Shown here: positions 4,742 through 61,306 of the stretch, piece after piece | How the letters are laid out: every line of letters starts with the position of its first letter | Numbering within the stretch: the first letter of the stretch is position 1 | Assembly: GCA_033065855.1 (NCBI GenBank) | Contig: JAVXUO010001356.1 | Span: forward strand, 1-64,000 | DNA: 64,000 nt | Source: Escallonia rubra | Lineage: Eukaryota; Streptophyta; Magnoliopsida; Escalloniales; Escalloniaceae | Direction of reading: 5' to 3' | Notes under the pieces: model-generated | Database searches by the model: none | Seen by the model: the letters and a program-made list of their open reading frames with translations, nothing else | What the model was told of the DNA's origin: nothing | Made by a program: the position numbers and the translations under genes

Positions 4742-5443
4742 TCAAGGCTTGGTTTTTGTTGCCTGCATGTAGGCTTTAGCTTCTTCGGAATTGAGGCAGC
4801 ACTTGAAGCAAGCTCCGCCACCTTTGCCATAATGACCACCACAGCACCCATACTTGCAATGTCCACCCTTCCCTCCTCCTCCTCCTCCATAACCACCTCC
4901 CTTGCTGCCGCCTCCGTAAGCCTCCTTATTTTCGACCTCCCTTCCTCCTCCGTAACCACCACCTCCTCCACCGGAACCACCACCCTTGCCTCCTCCTCCA
5001 TAACCACCACCTCCTCCACCATAACCACCACCCTTGCCTCCTCCTCCGTAACCACCACTTCCTCCGCCGGAACCACCACCCTTGCCTCCTCCTCCGTAAC
5101 TACCACTTCCTCCGCCGGAACCACCCCCCTTGCCTCCTCCTCCGTAACCACCACTTCCTCCGCCGGAACCACCCCCCTTTCCCCCTCCTCCGTAACCACC
5201 ACTTCCTCCGCCGGAACCACCGCCCTTGCCTCCTCCTCCTCCGTAACCACCACCTCCTCCGCCGTAATCGCCGCCCTTGCCTCCTCCTCCGTAACAACCA
5301 CCTCCTCCGCCGTAACCACCACCCTTGCCTCCTCCATGATCGCCGCCCCATCCTTTACTTCCTTCCTTCGTAACCTCCCTTACCGCCTTCACCATAACAG
5401 TAATTTCCATTGCTATGATCATCCACATTATTTGCTACCCCAG
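4742..5443 (-). CDS. Glycine-rich protein GRP-C, exon 2 only; probably damaged
   Basis: The minus strand encodes a long Gly-rich domain built of GGGGKGGGSGGGSGGYG-type units, then a Cys-rich tail (CKYGCC, CFKCC) and the end EEAKAYMQATKTKP. It is likely a secreted cell-wall protein of the family of GRP-A and GRP-B here. The right edge follows a CATGCAG acceptor, and the exon opens with CTGGGG, like the CTGAGG of the two paralogues. Read in their phase it gives TGVANNVDDHSNGNYCYGEG, but that frame stops at a TAA soon after. A GAAG unit present three times, against two needed to join the downstream Gly-rich frame, explains the shift. An internal ATG at 5428 opens the Gly-rich frame but gives a non-GRP start (MWMIIAMEIT). 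No signal-peptide exon is found to the right. Most likely a recent pseudogene; a misplaced or distant first exon cannot be excluded. Confidence 0.65.
4965..5235 (-). repeat. 48-bp coding repeats in GRP-C
   Basis: Near-identical 48-bp (16-codon) units, each containing CCTCCGTAACCACCACTT and CCGCCGGAACCACC on the plus strand, run in tandem about five times. They account for most of the Gly-rich domain. Confidence 0.8.
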
Positions 5444-22130: not shown

Positions 22131-22135
22131 GAACA

Positions 22136-22838
22136 TGTTGGAATATTTTAATAAAATAAAATGTACATTATAGCATTGTTATTATATTGCAAATTATGGC
22201 CATATGTATTTACTTACATGTAAATTATGAAATGAGTTACAAAAGCAATAATGAGTATTATTAACTCAATTGTGTTTATGGTGCATATAATATACTTTAT
22301 TATTTGGCATTATTGGGAATGGTTATGATCCATGAGTTACAAAGGTTTTTAAGCTTACTTATGTTACTAATAAATGGATTATGATTGGTCATCTATATAA
22401 GGCCATGTGGTGTGACATAGAAAAACTCTTGAAGCTTGTATGCTTCGAAACTTAGTTCTCTACTCTACTACCAAGATGTATTTTTCTTTATATTTATTTT
22501 TTATATTTTATACGTGGGTAACGTGATCGTGGACTGGTTCATATTGTCTTCCTGTGGACGTACACATGGAGGAGACATAGCTGCGTCAATGGGTTTTATC
22601 TTGGAGACATTATCTGCCGTCAACACCTGCACGTAGGGAGGCGATAACGTCTTTAGGACAGTGACTCTGTCACGACTCTCACGGACGAGCAATTTTATAT
22701 CATTTTACTGCTTTAGATTACATAATTTTATCAAGAGTTCATATAGAATTACTTTCAATTACTTTGCTACGTTTAATATCTTGTTATTGCTAATATTTTG
22801 TTGTAGAAAATACAAATTAAAGCCTAAATCTTTCAACA
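22136..22838 (+). repeat. 5' LTR (703 bp)
   Basis: Begins TGTTGGAATA and ends TTTCAACA. It contains a TATATAAGG box near 22393-22402 and a transcript-like leader. It has a ~37-bp segment, starting after TATATAAGG, that the 3' LTR lacks. Confidence 0.9.
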
Positions 22839-22920
22839 CCTAAAGACGTTATTGGTTTTGATTTGTATAGTTTTCAATTTTTATTTTTTGAAAGAGTGAA
22901 GAGAGATTTGGAAGCTAGAA

Positions 22921-23160
22921 ATGGCGATTCGTGTTTTCAGCTCCATCACAACCCATTGCTCCAGCTCGGTCAGAGGTGTTTCTGTTGGAAATCATTTCAT
23001 TCCCCACCAAAAAGGTTGAGAGGGGTGGGGAAGATGCCTTCTTCGTGAGCTCCTTCAGTGGGGGAGTGTCGTTGCTGATGGTGTCTCTGGGTGGGCCGAA
23101 AAGAATGTTGATCCTGCACAGTTCTCTAGGGAAATGATGACTAAAGCTTCAGCTTTGGTG
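22921..23160 (+). pseudogene. Captured 5' coding part of a chloroplast PP2C (PBCP-like)
   Basis: The fragment opens at an ATG with a transit-peptide-like start, MAIRVFSSITTHCSSSV. Separate stretches then match the N-terminal region of plant PBCP-type protein phosphatase 2C: VERGGEDAFFVSS and VADGVSGWAEKNVDPAQFSR, the latter containing the metal-binding DG motif. PBCP dephosphorylates photosystem II core proteins in the chloroplast. The segment covers the first quarter or so of the protein and stops abruptly at the HSP70 joint. It is a host gene fragment carried inside an LTR element and is treated as a broken passenger. Family assignment is from memory of the conserved motifs, with good confidence. 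Confidence 0.8.
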
Positions 23161-23368
23161 CCGGAAAAGGTGAGGGACCCGCGATCGGGATAGATCTCAG
23201 CACGACCTACTCGTGCGTCGGCGTGTGGAAGCACAACCGCGTCGAGATCATCGCCAACGACCAGGGCAACAGGACGACTCCTTCTTACGTCACCTTCAAC
23301 GACTGAGAGGCTCATCGGCGATGCGGCGAAGAACCAAGTCATCATGAATCCAATTAACACCATCTTCG
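23161..23368 (+). pseudogene. Captured exon 1 of cytosolic HSP70 (HSC70-type)
   Basis: Directly after the PP2C part comes [13 protein letters not shown], the plant HSC70 N-terminus lacking only its initiator Met. [26 protein letters not shown] and DAAKNQV follow, all ATPase-domain signatures. Similarity ends at AACACCATCTTCG followed by GTAAGG, the position and phase of the conserved intron of plant HSC70 genes (…NTVFD|AKRL…). So exactly exon 1 is present, and the next bases may be HSP70 intron. The fragment lacks most of the nucleotide-binding domain and all of the substrate-binding domain. It is a broken passenger of the LTR element. Confidence 0.88.
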
Positions 23369-26237
23369 GTAAGGTTTTAGCTCAGTGTGGATCTCTGTGT
23401 TGTTGCCTATGCGTAGATCTAGAATGCTTGGTTGGTTGCAGATTTTGGCTGTGTATGTTGTTTACCCATTGAGGTGTGTAAATTACTGCTGTGTGTGTTA
23501 CGTGCTTTATTTATTGCAGCATAGTAGCTAGATCTGGTATGTAGAGAAAAGTTTATAGAGGAAGAAGAAGAAGCTTGATCTGAGAGCGTATATCAATATT
23601 TTGATTATCTATGTGAAATAATTTGAGTCAATGTGATTTGATTACCTATTTGAAATAATTTACTTCAAACCAGTGCATTACTTGAAAAGTTGTAAGGTTC
23701 CTTGTGGAAGAACAATCAATAAATATTGCTTGGAAGATTACAGCAATCATCTTATAGTAAATTTTATTAGCTGAAAAAGTGATTACTGAAGTTTAGAGAA
23801 GTTTTACTGCACGTTTATTTTTAATGAGGTAAAGTTTTTTTCGGAATCTTTAACAAATTGGAATGCTTTTAGGATGTGAGAATTAAGCCTAGGAATGTGG
23901 GGGTTAAGTTTTAATTCCATTATTCCTGCACGTTCTTTTGGAAGAAAAATTGGGTTACAACTTTTTTGGTTTAAAAAAAAAATGAAAAGCATTACGTTTT
24001 AGATGAAGGGGTAAAACATTTTCTAAGTATGATGAGCGTATGTCTCTTACGTATATTAGATATTTTCTTTGAGCGACCAGTTTCATCTAACTCTCTTTTT
24101 GTAGATATCATATAAAGAAAATAAAGGAAAAATAAAATGAACTTTTGCTAGATATTTTTTTTTTGTGTATGAATTGGATTCAAAATTTAAAAATTAGTGA
24201 CAATAACGCTGATGCCTTTACTCATATATTTGTCTGTAAGTAGTTGTATCGTGGAAAATACCTAGAGTTATTCTTTTTAATTTTTGTCACATGGTTTTGG
24301 TTTGGAAAAAAAAAAGGAATTTTGAGATTTTACACAGAGTTATAGTTTGGTAAACTACCCAAAGTTAGTGTTTGTGGAGTTCTCTTTCAAGAGAGGAAAT
24401 AATTTGTTTTATAAAATTATGAAAATCATTATTTCAATGTTAAATTCATTGATAAATACATGGCTGCGAAATATGGGGGTGCATGATTTGAAGATAATTA
24501 TGATTTCTTGAGTCATGTATATACAAAGAAGATTAGCGACATAAAGAACATCTATTTACAATATGTTCTTAATTTTAAGTCTATTTTAGCATGTCGTGTG
24601 CATGTATCCATAGTGAGATTATGTTATATCTCATGCGTGTATTTCTGTTTCTTGCACTTGGGCTTTGCTAGTTTGGATCTCTGGGCATGTATAGCTCTTC
24701 TGCATAATTGAGCTTAAAATGTGGAAGGAGGAAAAAAAAAATTGCAAAGTATTGCGAAGTTTAGTAATTGAAACTATACTTTGGTAAAGATGTTAAATCA
24801 TAATAACCGAAATCTTTGACTTCTGATTATCTTGGCTATTTTGATATTTATTGTTGTGGTATCTATTTCAAATGGTATCTAAGTTTTGATTTTTTGAATA
24901 CGAGGTGCGTTGAATCTTTTGGTACTTTAAATCCTGGATACCCAATTATTTATCATATGATTGCAAATTCGAAACTATATTTGCACATGGATTTTATATA
25001 ACTTTTGCAAAGCTTGAGAATTGAAAATTCTTGAAACTTATCAGAGGATTTTTGTGAAGTTGCTATTGATGTGAGATTATGTTATGCAAAGCATGACGCA
25101 TGTTGAGGAAAATGTGGCTCCTAGTAGGTGAAAGACTACTGGTCCCAATATGTTGAAGACTAGTTCCTAGTAGTAGACTACTGATCAAAGGTTCGATTCC
25201 TAGTAGTGAGACTACTGACTAGCTAGTATCATATTTGATGCTAAGCGAAGTGGATGTTACCATTGAAATGTGATTTACTTGATGAGATTCATAATGTTGC
25301 TTCCATGTGCACTATTGGGCCCTTAAAATTCTGCAGACTTGTGATACTTCATCGATGAAGAGAAAATAAATTATAGAGGCTTTCTAAAAGTTGTGCAACT
25401 TGCCTCGGGACTAGCACAGAGGCTAGATCCTTTTTCACCTGAGGCGGATGGGGTGAGCCCACAGGGAGTCACCAGCGGGAGTAACCCATCCTTTGTGATT
25501 GGAGATCCCATGAAGAAGGTTCAATGGGTAGAAACAACCCGTAGAGCGTGACTCATGATAAAAGTAGCACAATTTTGTTACTAGGAGAGTGTGTCTCCTC
25601 CCCATCCGTACGGTGCTCGTGCTACTTAGTGTGACGTCTAGGAAGGGTTTTTCCGTGAATGAGCCCGAGGCGAATTTTTTCGCGAGGTACATGTCACACG
25701 TACCCTTGGAGGACTCACCTAAGTGAGAGTGGTCGTGAGGCCGCGACTGTGGGAAGTATGGGCCATTCCCTAAAGACTCTCATGAGAATCAAGATAAGAG
25801 CGCGTGGCCATCAATAGCGCTAACCCGCGAACTAAGTCCCATATCAGTATTGTGTGTGTGACAACTGAAGTTTGGCCAAGGGACCTAATTCAAGGCGTAA
25901 TCCATTACGGCTCTCTCAAATGGAAGTTGTCAACACTAAGTGTTGGTTCAAGCCCGGAAGGCACCAACACCTATTACACAGTACAAGTTGCCCATCTTAT
26001 TTATGTATATTTGTTTTTTATATTTTATTACTTTATGAGTTTATAAACCATGGCTTTATTTTGCGAAAGAGAAAAATATTCAATAATTTAAATAAAAAAA
26101 GAGAGGTTTATGATTTTATCATGATGTTCATTGATATGGTTTTAAATGCTTAAATTTTTTGGAATTGTGAGACTTTATAAACATTTCATTAGTGACTTTT
26201 TAAGTATTTTTTTAAATTATCATTTTATTTTATCAAA
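23369..26237 (+). other. Non-coding interior of the LTR element
   Basis: The first few hundred bases may derive from the HSP70 intron. No exon 2 is seen. At 25118-25230 a CCTAGTAGT(G)AGACTACTG unit recurs three or four times. From 25380 to 25990 the composition becomes balanced (CCTCGGGACTAGCACAGAGG, GTCCCATATCAGTATTGTG), resembling the untranslated 3' region of an LTR element. No gag or pol is present. Confidence 0.6.
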
Positions 26238-26249
26238 ATAGTGGGGGAT
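26238..26249 (+). other. Polypurine tract
   Basis: AATAGTGGGGGA(T) stands immediately before the TG of the 3' LTR, where plus-strand synthesis would be primed. Confidence 0.75.
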
Positions 26250-26916
26250 TGTTGGAATATTTTAATAAAATAAAATGTACATTATAGCATTGTTATTATA
26301 TTGCAATTTATGGCCATATGTATTTACTTACATGTAAATTATGAAATGAGTTACAAAAGCAATAATGAGTATTATTAACTCAATTGTGTTTATGGTGCAT
26401 ATAATATACTTTATTATTTGGCATTATTGGAGATGGTTATGATCCATGAGTTACAAAGGTTTTTAAGCTTACTTATGTTGCTAATAAATGGATTATGATT
26501 GGTCATCTATATAAGGTCTGCTTCGAAACTTAGTTCTCTACTCTACTACCAAGATGTATTTTTCTTTATATCTATTTTTTATATTTTATACGTGGGTAAA
26601 GTGATCGTGGACTGGTTCATACTGTCTTCCTGTGGACGTGCACATGGAAGAGACATAGCTGCGTCAATGGGTTTTATCTTGGAGACATTATCTGCCGTCA
26701 ACACCTGCACGTAGGGAGGCGATAACGTCTTTAGGACTGTGACTCTGTCACGACTCTCACGGACGAGTTATTTTATATCATTTTACTGCTTTAGATTACA
26801 TAATTTTATCAAGAGTTCATATAGAATTACTTTCAATTATTTTGCTACGTTTAATATCTTGGTATTGCTAATATTTTGTTGTAGAAAATACAAATCAAAG
26901 CCTAAATCTTTCAACA
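26250..26916 (+). repeat. 3' LTR (667 bp)
   Basis: Near-identical to 22136-22838, with the same TGTTGG start and CAACA end, followed by the GAACA duplication. Confidence 0.9.
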
Positions 26917-29176
26917 GAACATAGGTAGAGAAATCAAGAGAGAGAGAGAGAGAGAAAGAACAAAGAAAGAGAAACACAGTGAGTATTTTGAGAGAGAAGG
27001 AGAAATTATACAGAGAAGGGGAAACCACACGGGAAGAGGAAGAGAGAAAAGGACGGCAGTCTAAAACTCCGGCGAAGAGTCCGAAATTTCCTGTAAGATT
27101 TCTACACCTCAGTAAACATATCAAAAAGTTTCTTGATTTAAAGTGATGGGGTTTGTTTTTTAGCGTTTGATTTTCATGTGGGGTTGCTGTTTGAGAGTTT
27201 GGAAACCACGTATGGTGGCAAAGTATGAGGCCAGGAGAAGGCCTTTTGTTTTCGTAATGGGGTTTTGGATAAACATGGGTGTGGCTGTGTGAGTGAAGGG
27301 GGTATTTTTGGGTGGAAAGGAATAGTGTGTAACAGGCTTTTGTGTGTTTGTGATGGAGGTGTGTTTACGTGTGTGTATATTGAGAGAGGCTGCAAGGCAG
27401 CCGTGTAGTGTGTGCTTTGTGCAGTCTGTGTGGGTAAAGAACAAGGAGCTATGGCTGCAAAGGCAACCATGGCTGCCGAGTAAGTGGGTACCGTGGATGG
27501 CTTGGACGGGATAAGAGAACCAAGCACTGTGTAAAATGGTGTGTCCGTAGTGTGTGTGTGTGTGTGTGAATATACTCTATGTGTGTGTGTGTGTGTGTGA
27601 ATATACTCTATGTGTGTGTGTATATACTCTATGTGTGTGTGTTCCGGTGTATGGGTTGTGAGGAGCATGAAATGGTATGTGTTGTGGGCATGAGAATGTA
27701 CAGGTGTGTTGGTGTGCGAGTGAATTTGTGTATAGTGGGTATATGTAAGTATAAATTACTGTGTGCAGTGTGTGGATACGGTGAATGGAGTGTGTACAGG
27801 CTATGGAGTTTGTGTGTGCATGAAAGTAGTGCAAATGGGAGGAGGTGCTGTGAGCACGTGTGTGTATAAAGGGGTGAGTTTGTACAGCCATGGTGAGATG
27901 AAGGATTGATGGTTGTAATGTGGGGTATGAGTGTTTTTGGTTAGTTGTGAAGATGATGTATTGGTGTGCATATACATGTGAGTAATGTGTGTATATATGT
28001 GATAGTGTGTGTAAGGAAAATGGGACGTATGTGTGAACTGTGTGTTCTGGGTTTGTACAGAAGCCGAAAGAAGAGAAGAAGGTGGGTGAACAGTGATGGG
28101 TTTATGCCGTAGAGTGGTACACTGTGCTTGCACAGTTGTACCACGTGACTGTTGGGTAACGTATAATTGTCGAAAAACTGTTGGGTAATATTAGAATTGC
28201 TGTTAAAATTTCCTATTTTTCGGATATCGTTTAGTATTTTTAATATTTTCTGTAATTTCAGTACTTTTAAAAAAAAATTCAGAGCTTTCAAAATTCATAT
28301 TAAATTATGGAAAAATTTCAGTAATGTTTTTGTATCACAAAGACAATTCCCTTTCAGTTTAGTAAATTTTAGAGTTGATTTGCTATTATTATCCATATCT
28401 CATTTGATTTAGCTAAACGGATGATTTTAAAGTGATTTCGACACTTTTTAATTCTTGATTTTAATTTATGTATTATCCTTGTATATTGTAAAGCTATTGT
28501 AAAATTTATGGGAAATTGATTTGAGCTGAAAATATTAATAGCTATTTTTGGGCTTTTCTTGTATTTAAAGATATTATTTTAATTTGAAAACATTCAAAAT
28601 TTCAAAAAATTCATATTTTGACTTTTTATAATGTTTTAAGTTTTAAAAGTGTTTTATTATAATTTATTTTTCATTTTTGGATATCGTTACACATTAAGGA
28701 GCGTATAGGGTTTCTCGCTTAGGTTGGCCGCGTGCGAGACTCGCTTTCAGTTATGCGATTTCGGAGTTAGAAGTGAGCACGTGGGAGGTAGTTGATATTA
28801 ACTTTATAGTATTGTAGCATAAATTGTGTTCTAACAAATGGATTGCCAATCTAGGATTATTCAGAAAATTTTGATCGAGGTAAGGATTTTCTCTCCGAAC
28901 CCTACTCATTATTCTGAACTCAGATGTTTTAATCTCAACTGTTTTGCAAATACTATTGAACTATGGTTTTATTAAATTTTCATGAAAATATTTGTATATG
29001 CCTGTGAAACCCTAATTTGAGCCGTTTAGCGATCGTTTGAAATTTTGATTCATACTTATTTGTTTATTGATTTGATCATCGTAAAATATTTTGAATTCTA
29101 TTTATTGCTTCTCAATGTTGGCATGAGTTAGTAATCTGGGAGTTATAAGGATGGTCTGTATTGTTGGAGTTATAAG
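26917..29176 (+). repeat. LTR-related repeat, copy A (family shared with 37633-39505)
   Basis: From about 27960 to 29170 the sequence aligns with 36530-38830. Shared blocks include GGTGGGTGAACAGTGATGGG, GTTGTACCAC, ATATTAGAATT, TTTTTAATATTTTCTG and TTGGATCGAGGTAAGG/GATCGAGGTAAGG. It includes a (GA)n tract (26935-26955) and GT-rich repeats (27549-27640). The left limit is unclear. Copy A is cut at 29176 by the start of another LTR. Confidence 0.55.
27549..27640. repeat. (GT)n and GAATATACTCTAT minisatellite
   Basis: Runs of GT alternate with (GAA)TATACTCTAT three times. Open frames on either strand here (His/Thr-rich or Cys/Val-rich) are repeat artefacts. Confidence 0.9.
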
Positions 29177-31546
29177 TGTTAGACCCCTCATATTTAAATG
29201 CTTAAAAAAAAAGGGAAGAAAAGAAAAGAAATTAAAAATTAGAGAGTTTGGGACGTAATTGGTATTTTGAAATTTTAATTGTTTTAAGAATATACATATA
29301 TATATATCTTTTATGTGTCTGATAGTTACGTACATTCATAGGAGCACACCAAAGTTCAGAAAAGTCTCTAGAGAATCCCTAGGAAGAGCCTTTTGAGAGT
29401 TTGATCATTACTTCGAGGTAAGAATTTATTTTCGGGTATCGAATTGAAGTTTGTAGCTGGAATCCTTACGAATTTTTATTATTGTTGGAACCCTAATTGG
29501 AACCTTTGGGTATATTAATTTTTAGGGCTTTTGATACAATTGGATTGAGAAGATCAGATTTTAGGTTAAATTGCGCGATCGAAGGTAAGGGTTTACTTTT
29601 GATATTTGATTTAGCGTTGGACCGATCATTCATGTAAGGATTATATATATTTTTTAAGATCTAAATCAGTGGTCGACCGATTACTCTTAGATTTGGAAAA
29701 AGATCTCCTCCTCGTCTTTTGTATGTTGTTTCTGAAATCTGTCAATTAAAAACCTCGTCACCTAATTCGTTCCGGTATTAACCAGTTAATTGAAGACCAT
29801 ATTTGTTGACTGTACATCGGTAACTGCACATTGAGTCGTCAAGAAATTATTTTCGTTGATTGATGCACGACAGGCTCGGATTTCTTTGATGTTGGCTTTG
29901 TTTGTTGAACAAACTTTGGCTCCTACCCGGGTCGTAGGAATCTTCCTTCAACCCCATGTATAGTGACAATTAATAGTGGTTAAATGTTTCAAACGACAAT
30001 AATTATTAGCAGCACTTTTTTAGCGTCACTAAATTAAAGCCACTAGAAACATTTAAAGACAATTGATTGTCGCTATATAAGGGGTAGGAGGAAGATTCCT
30101 CCAACCAGGGTAGCAGCCAAATTTTTCCTTGTTTGTTTGAGCCATGCAATTACGGAACTCGTATTACTAACTCGTCATTAATTGCTTGAAACTTTTTGCG
30201 TGCCAATTGGCTACATAGCCATCTGTCTCCTGATCTGTTTCTTTTGTAGGCCAATTTATCGCAGCCCTTCCTATTGTATTGATTTTTTCCAAAGTGTAGA
30301 CAGAGAGCTTTTCATACTATATCATGTCCAGACTTGTGGTGTGGTCATTCTTGTTATTGTCTTGTTAAACAAATTTAGTCACCAGTCCAACCACATCTTA
30401 GACTTACACGTGCCTTGGTCATTAAGTGAATGTCATCATTTGACAAAGTTTTGGCTCCTGCTCTCTACTCACCTCACCACTATATATATTTTATAGCTGT
30501 GGTTAGTGCTATATTTCTATGAATGCTAAAATGACAAAGTGGGAACTTTCTTCATTCAAGGCTTTACTTGATATATTCAAATTTCCATCTATCCGAACAC
30601 TGGTATTTTAATGGTTGCCTTGCCTTAATTTTCTTTTGTGCCAGGTTCGTCTATAGTCCCGTTCTTGTATACTCTGTTCCGTTTTATTCCTTTGGACATG
30701 TTTATTTGTGTATGACTTATGGGTAGCACCAACTAGCGTGTGCCGTCGGCCGCTAGATGAGTGCGGCTCATTCCTAAAGATGGTCTAGGCAATCTATTGG
30801 TGTTTAGTAGTTTAAAAATTGAATTAACATACATGTATTTTGGCGAGCCATGTCACGTGTATGTGACTATAATTTATTTATGACTTACCCACGTGGATTG
30901 GAACGTGGGCTAGCTCAGTGGGACGAGCTAGAGATCGCGATCTTATTTTCTGAACATGGTTTCACGTGTTAGTGATGACATGTGTGACCTTATTTTGAAT
31001 GGCTCTCTAGTCTCTGTTTCTGTACAAAATATATTTTGGCATTTCGAAATTCTTTTGTGTATCTGTTCCGTTAAAAATTCTGTATGTCCGCAACTTCATT
31101 TTCTCAGACATTTTTTTTATTCCTTTTGATTGGTCTATTGAGCGACCTTACTGGGCATTTGGCTCACTCCCTTATTGTTTTTCTTTCAGGTGATCAGTAG
31201 GTGAGATTGGATTACAGGGTTAGCTGTGTGACTGAGAGTTAGCAATTTTATATCAAAGTCAGTATTAATAGTTTAGTTTTGCATTTAGTTTGGTTATTTT
31301 TAGAAAGTACAATAGGAGGACCTATGTGGATTTGGATGATTAATTTGGAACTCCGTGTAGGAGTAATTTGGGGACTTAATTACTGTTTTAGGTCTATTTG
31401 AGACGTAATTATGTGACTTGGAGAATTTTTTATTTATTTTTTATTTTTAGATGCTCTGACTAACCAGTTTGGGAGACTTATGAATATTTGGGGTTTTCTG
31501 TCTTTATTGATTTGAATTTAACGCTTCAAAAATTCGGGGCGTTACA
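29177..31546 (+). repeat. Gypsy-type (chromovirus-like) 5' LTR, about 2.4 kb
   Basis: It starts TGTTAGACCCCTCATATTT, like the TGTAACACCCC start of Tekay-type Gypsy LTRs, and ends CGGGGCGTTACA, two bases before a tRNA-iMet primer site. It is inserted in repeat copy A after ATAAG. It contains MITE 29915-30121. The downstream internal region has no recognisable gag or pol, so the element is a broken fossil. The start is less certain than the end. Confidence 0.55.
29915..30121. mobile_element. MITE family M1, copy 3 (complete hairpin, 207 bp)
   Basis: The left arm TTTGGCTCCTACCCGGGTCG and the inverted right arm TTTGGCTGCTACCCTGGTTG continue alike for about 75 bp (GGAATCTTCC, CCCC, TATAG, GACAATTAAT-type, TTAAATGTTTC). 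The whole element could fold into one hairpin. No clean target duplication is seen, so the superfamily is open. TAGCGAC-type words recall the CACTA-like ends here. Confidence 0.7.
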
Positions 31547-59945: not shown

Positions 59946-61306
59946 GGGTTAATTTTATGCTACACCTCGTACTTAGGGGTCAGTTGCACCCAGCACCTTA
60001 TGGTTCTAATTTTGGCACCCAGCACCAAAATTTTAAAAATCTTGGCACCCAGCACCAGATGACGGTCAAGAGGCACTTTGACCACACGTCTGCTAGTTTT
60101 TCAGGGGCAAAATAGTCTTATTGCCCCTTAAAGCATACATGTCATCCAGTCAGCTACACATGGCCCAATTGGGCTCTCCACGTCACCAGCTCTGGACTTC
60201 TGGTCTCTAAACTCTCACCCACAGCATCTCCCCATCAACAATGGGTTGCTGTCTTAGCACCACGCCCCCAAAACAACCACCCACATTCCATCCCTTCGAC
60301 CCACCACCACCACCATTTGCCTAAATCTGGCTCCGATGGCAGAGACCCACCACCTCCACCGCCAGTACTGGAGGAAGAAATCGTGAAAGAAGTCCTCTCG
60401 GAAACCCTCATCCCAAAATCACCAACATCGGTAGTAGCAGACATCACCAAACGGCCCAGAGTCCAAGAACCCAAGGTTGAATCACTAGCTCCGCCAAATC
60501 CGACAGACGAAATCGTCTCTGAGGTCTCCGAGATCTGCAGCTTCAGCGGCAGCTTCTCGACTACGACGGTGACCGAGGTGAGGGACGACGACGGCGGAGA
60601 AGTGACCCAAAGGGTCCGTAAGTCTCCCGCGAAGATCCCGAGAAAACGGCCGTACTCCGACAAACTCCCCAAAACGATGGAGAGGGGCGCCCGGTCTCCG
60701 GTCAAAAGGTCGGCTCCATCGCCGGTCCTGGCGAGGACAGTGACGGGTCAGCGGTAGAATGCGGGGCCGGCTAATGGCATCCAGCGGGATCCCGACGAAA
60801 GATGAATCCAGGTAACAGTACTGCGATAGGCTCCATCGGCTCCGGCAGATCTGGTGGTTGGATTGGTGGCTGCTCCGGCAGCATAGTGGCAGATCTGGTG
60901 GTTGCAAAATTTGGCGTCGGCGTCAACAACACAGTGGCACGGCAGCAAGACACCATCCTTGGTGGTCGATTGGCTGTTGGTGCCCCTCGCCGGTGGCTAT
61001 ATGAACCTACATTGCCCCATTTCTTTTCTCTTCTGCTTCATTTCTTTTTAGCTGTCAGAGAGCTGGTGACGTGGAGAGCCCAATTGGGCCATGTGTAGCT
61101 GACTCGATGACATGTATGCTTTAAGGGGCAATAAGACTATTTTGCCCCTGAAAAACTAACAGACGTGTGGTCAAAGTGCCTCTTGACCGTCATCTGGTGC
61201 TGGGTGCCAAGATTTTTAAAATTTTGGTGCTAGGTGCCAAAATTAGAACCATAAGGTGCTGGGTGCAACTGACCCCTAAGTACGGGGTGTAGCGTAAAAT
61301 TAACCC
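59946..61306. mobile_element. Pack-MULE (Mutator-like element carrying a host gene fragment)
   Basis: Long terminal inverted repeats of exactly 248 bp each (59946-60193, 61059-61306) start GGGTTAATTTTAYGCTACAC. They differ at five positions with no gaps, about 98% identical. The flanks are an identical 10-bp TAGGTATTAT (59936-59945, 61307-61316). No transposase is present. The GC-rich centre carries host coding sequence. End similarity and the perfect duplication indicate a recent insertion. Confidence 0.9.
60241..60800 (+). pseudogene. Captured fragment of a plant MGCC-type Ser/Arg-rich protein gene
   Basis: The fragment starts at an ATG with MGCCLSTTPPKQPPTFHPFD, an N-myristoylation/palmitoylation-type start. 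This frame ends at a TAA after about 28 codons. A frame offset by one base continues from about 60317 for 146 codons. It includes a Pro run, EEEIVKEVLSETLIPKSPTS, EIVSEVSEICSFSGSFSTTT, QRVRKSPAKIPRKR and a Ser/Arg/Pro-rich end at a TAG (60755-60757). Proteins with MGCC starts, an EEE-VKEVLSET block, a SEICS-SEST block and a basic RSP-rich tail occur across eudicots as small uncharacterised proteins. The copy has a frame change in a CCA-rich tract and a premature stop, so it is probably non-coding. It could still be transcribed and act through antisense or small RNA. Confidence 0.7.

Follow-up and report, generated by a model that had tools for sequence, protein, structure and literature searches.

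A Family of LTR Elements in Escallonia rubra with a Changing Mosaic of Host-Gene Pieces behind a Common Leader

How do pieces of two unlinked host genes come to lie end to end inside a single long terminal repeat (LTR) element? The question is raised by a locus of Escallonia rubra (assembly GCA_033065855.1, contig JAVXUO010001356.1), where we analysed positions 1 to 64,000 of the forward strand; this whole stretch of 64,000 nucleotides (nt) is called the window below. A first-pass annotation of the window had described an LTR element in which a piece of a protein phosphatase gene (PP2C, PBCP-like) is fused to an exon of an HSP70 gene, and had proposed a gene-shuffling retroelement family should other copies share the fusion. 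The insertion is indeed one copy of a family: its members share their LTRs, a 30-nt leader and, for the most part, a 3' domain, and behind the leader follows a mosaic of host-gene pieces that varies among them. We consider it likely that this is a non-autonomous LTR family, helped in trans, in which cellular RNAs are taken up by template switching at microhomologies and then recombined. The proposal of a gene-shuffling family thus stands, except that it was too small, as the family involves about ten passenger genes rather than one two-gene element.

A complete LTR insertion of 4781 nt occupies 22136-26916 (Table 1), and the coordinates and the alignment bear out the paired LTRs, the polypurine tract and the GAACA duplication described for it earlier. 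Its two LTRs differ by 16 substitutions over 667 aligned sites, with 38 gap columns (Kimura two-parameter distance, K2P, 0.024). An alternative rate of 7e-9 would put the insertion at about 1.75 million years. At the rate of 1.3e-8, as in PMC5664825, its estimated age would be about 0.9 million years. The annotated absence of gag and pol also held among the frames scanned: 16 of the 35 listed open reading frames of the window (at least 50 amino acids, both strands) were compared with Pfam and gave no gag or pol match, so the element is non-autonomous by that test. One antisense frame across the PP2C/HSP70 joint just passed the cut-off for PF10712 (22.9 bits against 22.8), which we read as chance. 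Pack-MULEs and Helitrons are known by terminal inverted repeats, or by TC...CTRR ends without a duplication, and the window element has direct LTRs, TG...CA ends and a 5-bp duplication. Terminal-repeat retrotransposons in miniature (TRIMs) are well under 2 kb in size, and at 4781 nt the element lies outside that class. In the window copy, the hairpin at the border of the 5' LTR has a minimum free energy of -18.9 kcal/mol (z -4.05; none of 200 shuffles was equally stable), and it may have a role in priming or packaging. The sequence behind the LTR reads (N)CTAAAGACGTTATTGG, with no TGG at its beginning as judged by eye; half-tRNA priming or self-priming is possible.

Table 1. Features of the LTR element in the window copy, which is the reference for coordinates. 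C numbers are contigs of the same genome.
Feature	Position	Strand	Remark
Target-site duplication GAACA, left copy	22131..22135	.	
5' LTR, TG...CA ends, 705 nt	22136..22840	+	
Hairpin of LTR end and leader, 15-bp main stem	22803..22878	+	spans LTR/internal border; folding and inverted repeat
Leader motif, 30 nt	22840..22869	+	83 places in genome
PP2C (PBCP-like) passenger: 5'UTR end, ATG, intronless exons, frame shifted	22889..23164	+	donor C2592 (L062)
PP2C/HSP70 joint on 5-nt microhomology GCCGG	23160..23164	+	donor compared with element
HSP70 exon 1 from codon 2	23160..23368	+	donor C1699 (L059)
HSP70 intron 1, unspliced, 360 nt	23369..23728	+	shorter than in sister copies by a gap at 23547
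Common 3' domain, no coding match in scanned frames	24188..26239	+	shared across most groups
Polypurine tract AGTGGGGGAT	26240..26249	+	directly before 3' LTR
3' LTR, 667 nt	26250..26916	+	about 36 nt deleted relative to 5' LTR
Target-site duplication GAACA, right copy	26917..26921	.	

Both passengers named by the annotation were recovered. The HSP70 piece of the window matches PF00012 (E 2.5e-15), and the PP2C piece, as it stands in the copy on C589, matches PDB entry 6AE9, "Probable protein phosphatase 2C 1" (E 5e-15); neither the C589 sequence of the PP2C piece nor the two window frames over it had a match in Pfam. The source genes lie on different contigs, C2592 and C1699, so that more than one unlinked host gene is found within one LTR pair, again as supposed. 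At C2592 the captured piece splits into five stretches. Three of the gaps between them are GT-AG introns; the remaining one, 117 nt long and likewise with GT-AG borders, falls within the first coding exon and is an exitron. The PP2C piece is the copy of a spliced mRNA. None of the captured copies compared has the 117-nt stretch, which lies at about 561-677 of the C2592 donor; this suggests that the PP2C mRNA underwent exitron splicing before its capture.

The HSP70 piece is of a different kind. In its source gene exon 1 is open, and exon 2 is a 596-residue open frame ending in EEVD. The homology of the window copy passes the exon 1 boundary at 23368 and continues through intron 1 to about 23728; the intron piece of the sister copies measures about 0.8 kb and stops at donor position about 1675, approximately the same donor point for the PP2C-HSP70 copies as for those in which HSP70 accompanies a beta-galactosidase piece. 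Of the two bounds given earlier for HSP70, the apparent start at the initiator Met can be kept, in that the piece begins at codon 2 and only seems to begin at the start codon because the joint sits on the GCCGG common to both donors; the end at the exon 1/intron position has to be given up. The fusion holds as a physical joint and is not an in-frame one: the two pieces differ in frame where they meet, and the frame of PP2C has shifted before that point. The window copy therefore encodes no fusion protein.

The joint is not confined to the window. With 22905-23380 as the query and the best 40 of 46 genome candidates scored, it was found in nine places (the window, C268, C558, C1844, C1993, C1375, C391, C844 and C589), and in all nine the family leader precedes PP2C-HSP70. 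Seven of the nine copies were read with both LTRs, six of them with 5-bp duplications of their own at different sites, and C268 and C589 have one full LTR each in the stretch read. On C589 the order is PP2C, HSP70 exon 1 and then a piece of an unnamed gene, called X here. It could be argued that the chimera was first a host locus, around or next to which an LTR element happened to insert. The locus that comes closest to this is on C2300, where HSP70 exon 1 is joined to X, no LTR turned up in the 1.5 kb read to each side, and the nearest same-strand leader motif is 8.9 kb away; however, the joint on C2300 itself continues into family 3' sequence (75-79% identity), and an origin as a host locus is hard to square with a leader in every PP2C-HSP70 copy and with the separate duplications of six of them. 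A PP2C-HSP70 joint at a locus free of LTRs, which the annotation had named as the case that would speak against it, was not seen among the scored candidates. We regard a host-locus origin as very improbable.

A whole-genome search with the 30-nt leader motif (at most two mismatches) gave 83 sites, 42 forward and 41 reverse, compared with none for the reversed control pattern. Passengers were assigned by position. A scored host-gene group was present at 55 of the 83 sites, and two or more genes at 35. These were PP2C with RPL5 (13 sites), TIR1/AFB with a MYB region (11), PP2C with HSP70 (8), PP2C with HSP70 and X (1), TIR1/AFB alone (6), a set of unnamed genes typified by copy L066 (6), reticulon (4), beta-galactosidase alone (2), beta-galactosidase with HSP70 (2) and the MYB region alone (2). 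At ten further sites the one piece recognised is a stretch of 77 nt in common with the beta-galactosidase passenger. The remaining 18 are without assignment, and two of them were sampled: C1985 (L076) carries at 29700-30090, near the leader, a piece of an ERD4/OSCA (CSC1-like) channel gene (PDB E 3e-12, Pfam 1.6e-5), and nothing recognisable was found at C1240. The sites on C330, C2416 and C2417 (L047-L049), all PP2C with RPL5, show the same element in the same flank and probably represent a single locus that entered the assembly three times, and five of the TIR1/AFB-MYB sites belong together in a tandem array in C1873; the 35 multi-gene sites therefore amount to about 29 loci. In five of the 13 PP2C-RPL5 copies (C428, C1226, C1789, C1535 and C1407) these two pieces are small, with about 58 nt at most for the one and 85-89 nt for the other. 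The count leaves out nine places with passenger matches, C2300, C1735, C2627, C2923, C636, C2458, C1101, C813 and C1082, which have no leader in range.

The array in C1873 (54742-79377) consists of five tandem units spaced about 4.9 kb apart, with TIR1/AFB-MYB passengers 99% identical, and the units apparently share LTRs in an LTR-internal-LTR-internal series. Copy L052 (C1671) contains, from about 2940 onwards in its own orientation, a further insertion that starts CACTACAAGAAAAGAGGG and has a zinc-knuckle-like frame; it is a putative DNA transposon.

The sites are held together by more than the leader. Apart from the window LTR itself, the best 40 of 479 genome candidates match the 5' LTR at 87-92% identity; the LTRs of the beta-galactosidase/HSP70 copies are the most distant ones aligned, at 80-81% to the window LTR. 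For the 3' domain, searched with 24400-26249, the best 40 of 279 candidates are 90-97% identical, again apart from the domain itself, and it is common to the PP2C-HSP70 copies (C589 excepted) and the PP2C-RPL5, reticulon, TIR1/AFB and L066 copies. Where both LTRs were read, 15 of 16 copies have 5-bp duplications; in six of these the LTR end had to be moved by one base.

The other passengers were identified as follows: reticulon by PF02453 (1.1e-9), MYB by PF00249 (1.7e-15), RPL5 by Ribosomal_L5e PF17144 (1.4e-12), TIR1/AFB by TIR1 in PDB (1.2e-9), and beta-galactosidase by Glyco_hydro_35 PF01301 (E 0.0016, below the curated cut-off) together with a donor on C2228. Donors were also traced for reticulon (C2068, five pieces), RPL5 (C2750, three separate pieces), TIR1/AFB (C1971, 96% over query 99-274), X (C1105, two pieces, with the intervening intron read and removed in the passenger) and, both of them unnamed genes, the L066 set (C2819, 92% over 426 nt; C2367, 90% over 154 nt); they were judged to lie outside the family from separate exon-like pieces or from the lack of family matches nearby, rather than from a reading of the whole genes. 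C1735, C2535 and C377 were considered as HSP70 donors and rejected, being chimeric copies with a beta-galactosidase piece plus HSP70; C2535 and C377 have LTR and leader, and C1735 has no leader in the stretch read. A piece in L050, L055 and C2300 that we take to be CHD/CHR5-like, and one in the L066 copy that is presumably P450-like, found no support in Pfam or PDB and are not counted by name.

Across these passengers, the recognised pieces are in sense orientation. The introns of the parent gene are lost in the PP2C, RPL5, X and reticulon pieces and kept in HSP70, and the 5' untranslated region (5'UTR) is included in PP2C, RPL5, reticulon and the HSP70 of the beta-galactosidase copies. The spliced passengers require an RNA step. 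One way to provide it is to suppose that the passengers are processed pseudogenes, put into an empty element by a long interspersed nuclear element (LINE) and later fused by deletions, for which the intronless PP2C, RPL5, X and reticulon pieces would be the expected material. Against such an origin, the HSP70 piece keeps its intron, and at the four joints for which both donors were compared one gene passes directly into the other on 4-6 nt of microhomology, without poly(A) or inner duplications, although poly(A) remnants were not systematically searched for. We think it quite improbable.

Those four joints are PP2C/HSP70 on GCCGG (5 nt), HSP70/X on GGTA (4 nt), an HSP70 remnant/X on AGGGAC (6 nt) and PP2C/RPL5 on CTCCT (5 nt); a random joint would show a microhomology of at least 4 nt with a probability of 0.016. 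The GGTA joint is the cut on C589. Trans-splicing was tried as an explanation of the HSP70/X fusion and was dropped, as the joint holds the first bases of the HSP70 intron and GGTA is common with X, which microhomology fits better. In the L050 group an RPL5 mRNA piece interrupts the PP2C part at CTCCT, and behind the PP2C piece stand 19 nt of HSP70 coding sequence, cut at AGGGAC, and then X. The 19-nt stretch is a relic of the PP2C-HSP70 joint.

The passengers and the LTRs do not always share one history. Copy L040 has a PP2C-HSP70 passenger that is 97.1-98.4% identical to those of six sister copies (the value for L046, 90.4%, is lowered by an insertion and was not used), whereas its LTR is 98.3% identical to that of L056, which belongs to another passenger group, and 87.5-92.7% to those of its own; in the LTR tree L040 joins L056 with a support of 1.000 despite the different passengers. 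Similarly, the passenger of L053 is 96.0-99.3% identical to its own group, and its LTR is 98.4% identical to that of L055 of another group against 90.2-91.5% to its own; in the LTR tree it falls outside its own passenger group. As passengers and LTRs group differently, they have reassorted. There is less contrast in L041, L042 and L044, which agree in LTR, passenger and 3' domain as simple descent predicts.

A strict order of capture (CHD-like, X, HSP70, PP2C, RPL5) was also considered, and the informative sites of HSP70 do not prove it. In exon 1, 16 sites separate the beta-galactosidase copies from the HSP70-X copies; the PP2C-HSP70 copies side with HSP70-X at 14 of them and with the beta-galactosidase group at 2, and nearly all of the 14 are donor states, the single shared change being at 23199. 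In the intron, which is absent in the HSP70-X group, the PP2C-HSP70 copies have six changes in common with the beta-galactosidase group. One HSP70 capture followed by divergence explains these sites as well as recombination does, and an unsampled HSP70 paralogue could explain them too.

How the genes were captured we infer from the passengers and their joints. In the template-switching reading that we favour, reverse transcriptase and integrase would be supplied in trans, and cellular RNAs would be packaged with the element RNA, in four of the five examined cases as spliced molecules. During minus-strand synthesis, the reverse transcriptase would jump at short microhomologies from the element RNA to a cellular RNA, copy part of it towards its 5' end, and jump back to the 5' region of the element; the sense orientation, the 5'UTR starts of several passengers and the microhomologies all fit such a switch. 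HSP70 would have been caught as a pre-mRNA, and the PP2C-HSP70 joint would have been formed by template switching and then transposed as a unit. Later switches between co-packaged family members would truncate, combine and exchange the passengers.

Several observations weigh against this reading. HSP70 keeps its intron, meaning that this RNA was unspliced or that the piece was captured from DNA. Not every piece comes from the 5' end of a gene: the TIR1/AFB piece covers residues 108-156, the ERD4/OSCA piece that adjoins the leader on C1985 covers residues 512-578, and the X passenger is internal as well, so a rule that passengers always start at the mRNA 5' end had to be dropped. The joints compared are four, namely those with donor sequence at hand, the joint at which RPL5 passes back to PP2C is ambiguous, and the breakpoints are approximate because donor identities lie between about 75%, in part of the HSP70 intron, and 98%. 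C589 showed no 3' domain, nor did the 4-5 kb read of C2535 and C1735, and copy L046 (C844) has no matching target-site duplication. No tRNA primer site of standard type was recognised by eye after the LTR, and no autonomous partner turned up, with no search aimed at pol genes. The internal pieces, in particular, lower our confidence in template switching and raise that in acquisition at the DNA level, by LTR readthrough into a neighbouring gene or by ectopic repair, with later spread by retrotransposition. The unspliced HSP70, with about 0.8 kb of intron 1 in the sister copies, would be at home in such a scheme, but the spliced PP2C, RPL5, X and reticulon pieces show an RNA step for those genes, and taken as a whole we find DNA-level acquisition unlikely.

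One may go a step further and picture the family as a standing shuffler of gene fragments, into which passengers enter near the leader from cellular RNAs, often from their 5' ends, erase or split older ones and are traded between LTR lineages; the order of the passengers would then be a partial record of the captures. The LTRs of L057, which show no substitution in 702 sites (2 gap columns), are read as a sign that the shuffling has continued to very recent time, and the family would have been active until then. We put this forward tentatively, as a picture that may somewhat more easily prove wrong than right, and the internal pieces count against it too.

Two further repeats were noticed in the window. 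An inverted repeat at 59946-61306, with 248-nt arms that are 98% complementary and 865 nt apart, is a possible transposon, and a tandem repeat with a spacing of about 48 nt lies at 4888-5370.

There is precedent for elements of this kind. The maize element Bs1 is an LTR element with pieces of three host genes joined by successive transductions, and template switching between RNAs is known from cereal elements (PMC13317346). What the family of Escallonia rubra has in common with Bs1 is several host-gene pieces joined inside one plant LTR element, and it is Bs1-like at an unusual scale. In place of three genes there are about ten, in many combinations at 83 leader sites; LTR lineages have traded their passengers, an intron is kept in one passenger, and the window copy has no open fused reading frame. 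The soybean TRIM GmaRetroS15 is non-autonomous and holds fragments of three genes, at least one of them without introns; the gene-carrying soybean TRIMs measure 1,172-1,449 bp (PMC4717578), against 4.8 kb with LTRs of about 700 nt here. In pepper, host mRNAs were copied into LTR elements, and about 72% of the NLR cases involved non-autonomous elements; the study centres on NLRs, with two or three genes in some elements (PMC5664825), whereas short pieces of many unrelated genes meet in one family here. Rice and sorghum surveys count captured genes (PMC3726574). The survey of maize B73 found 425 LTR elements with gene fragments from at least 189 captures (PMC2774510), and it met no element with more than one standard nuclear gene under the survey conditions, in contrast to 35 of the 83 leader sites here. 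Among open-licence papers, searched otherwise than by species name, we recognised no description of this family, of a PP2C-HSP70 element, or of one family with so many passengers and combinations. Multi-gene transduction itself is already known; relative to the known captures, what appears to be new is one family that takes up many host genes in many combinations and swaps them between its copies.

The acquisition of genes by LTR elements is usually argued from single end products. In Escallonia rubra, several states survive in one genome, from copies with one passenger and copies with two to the copies with the 19-nt relic, along with the donors, so that capture can be followed stepwise, and dozens of copies are available for statistical tests of breakpoints, microhomology, splicing state and order. 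Should an LTR promoter drive joint transcription of several passengers, the family would also be a source of chimeric transcripts and of small RNAs directed against the donor genes.

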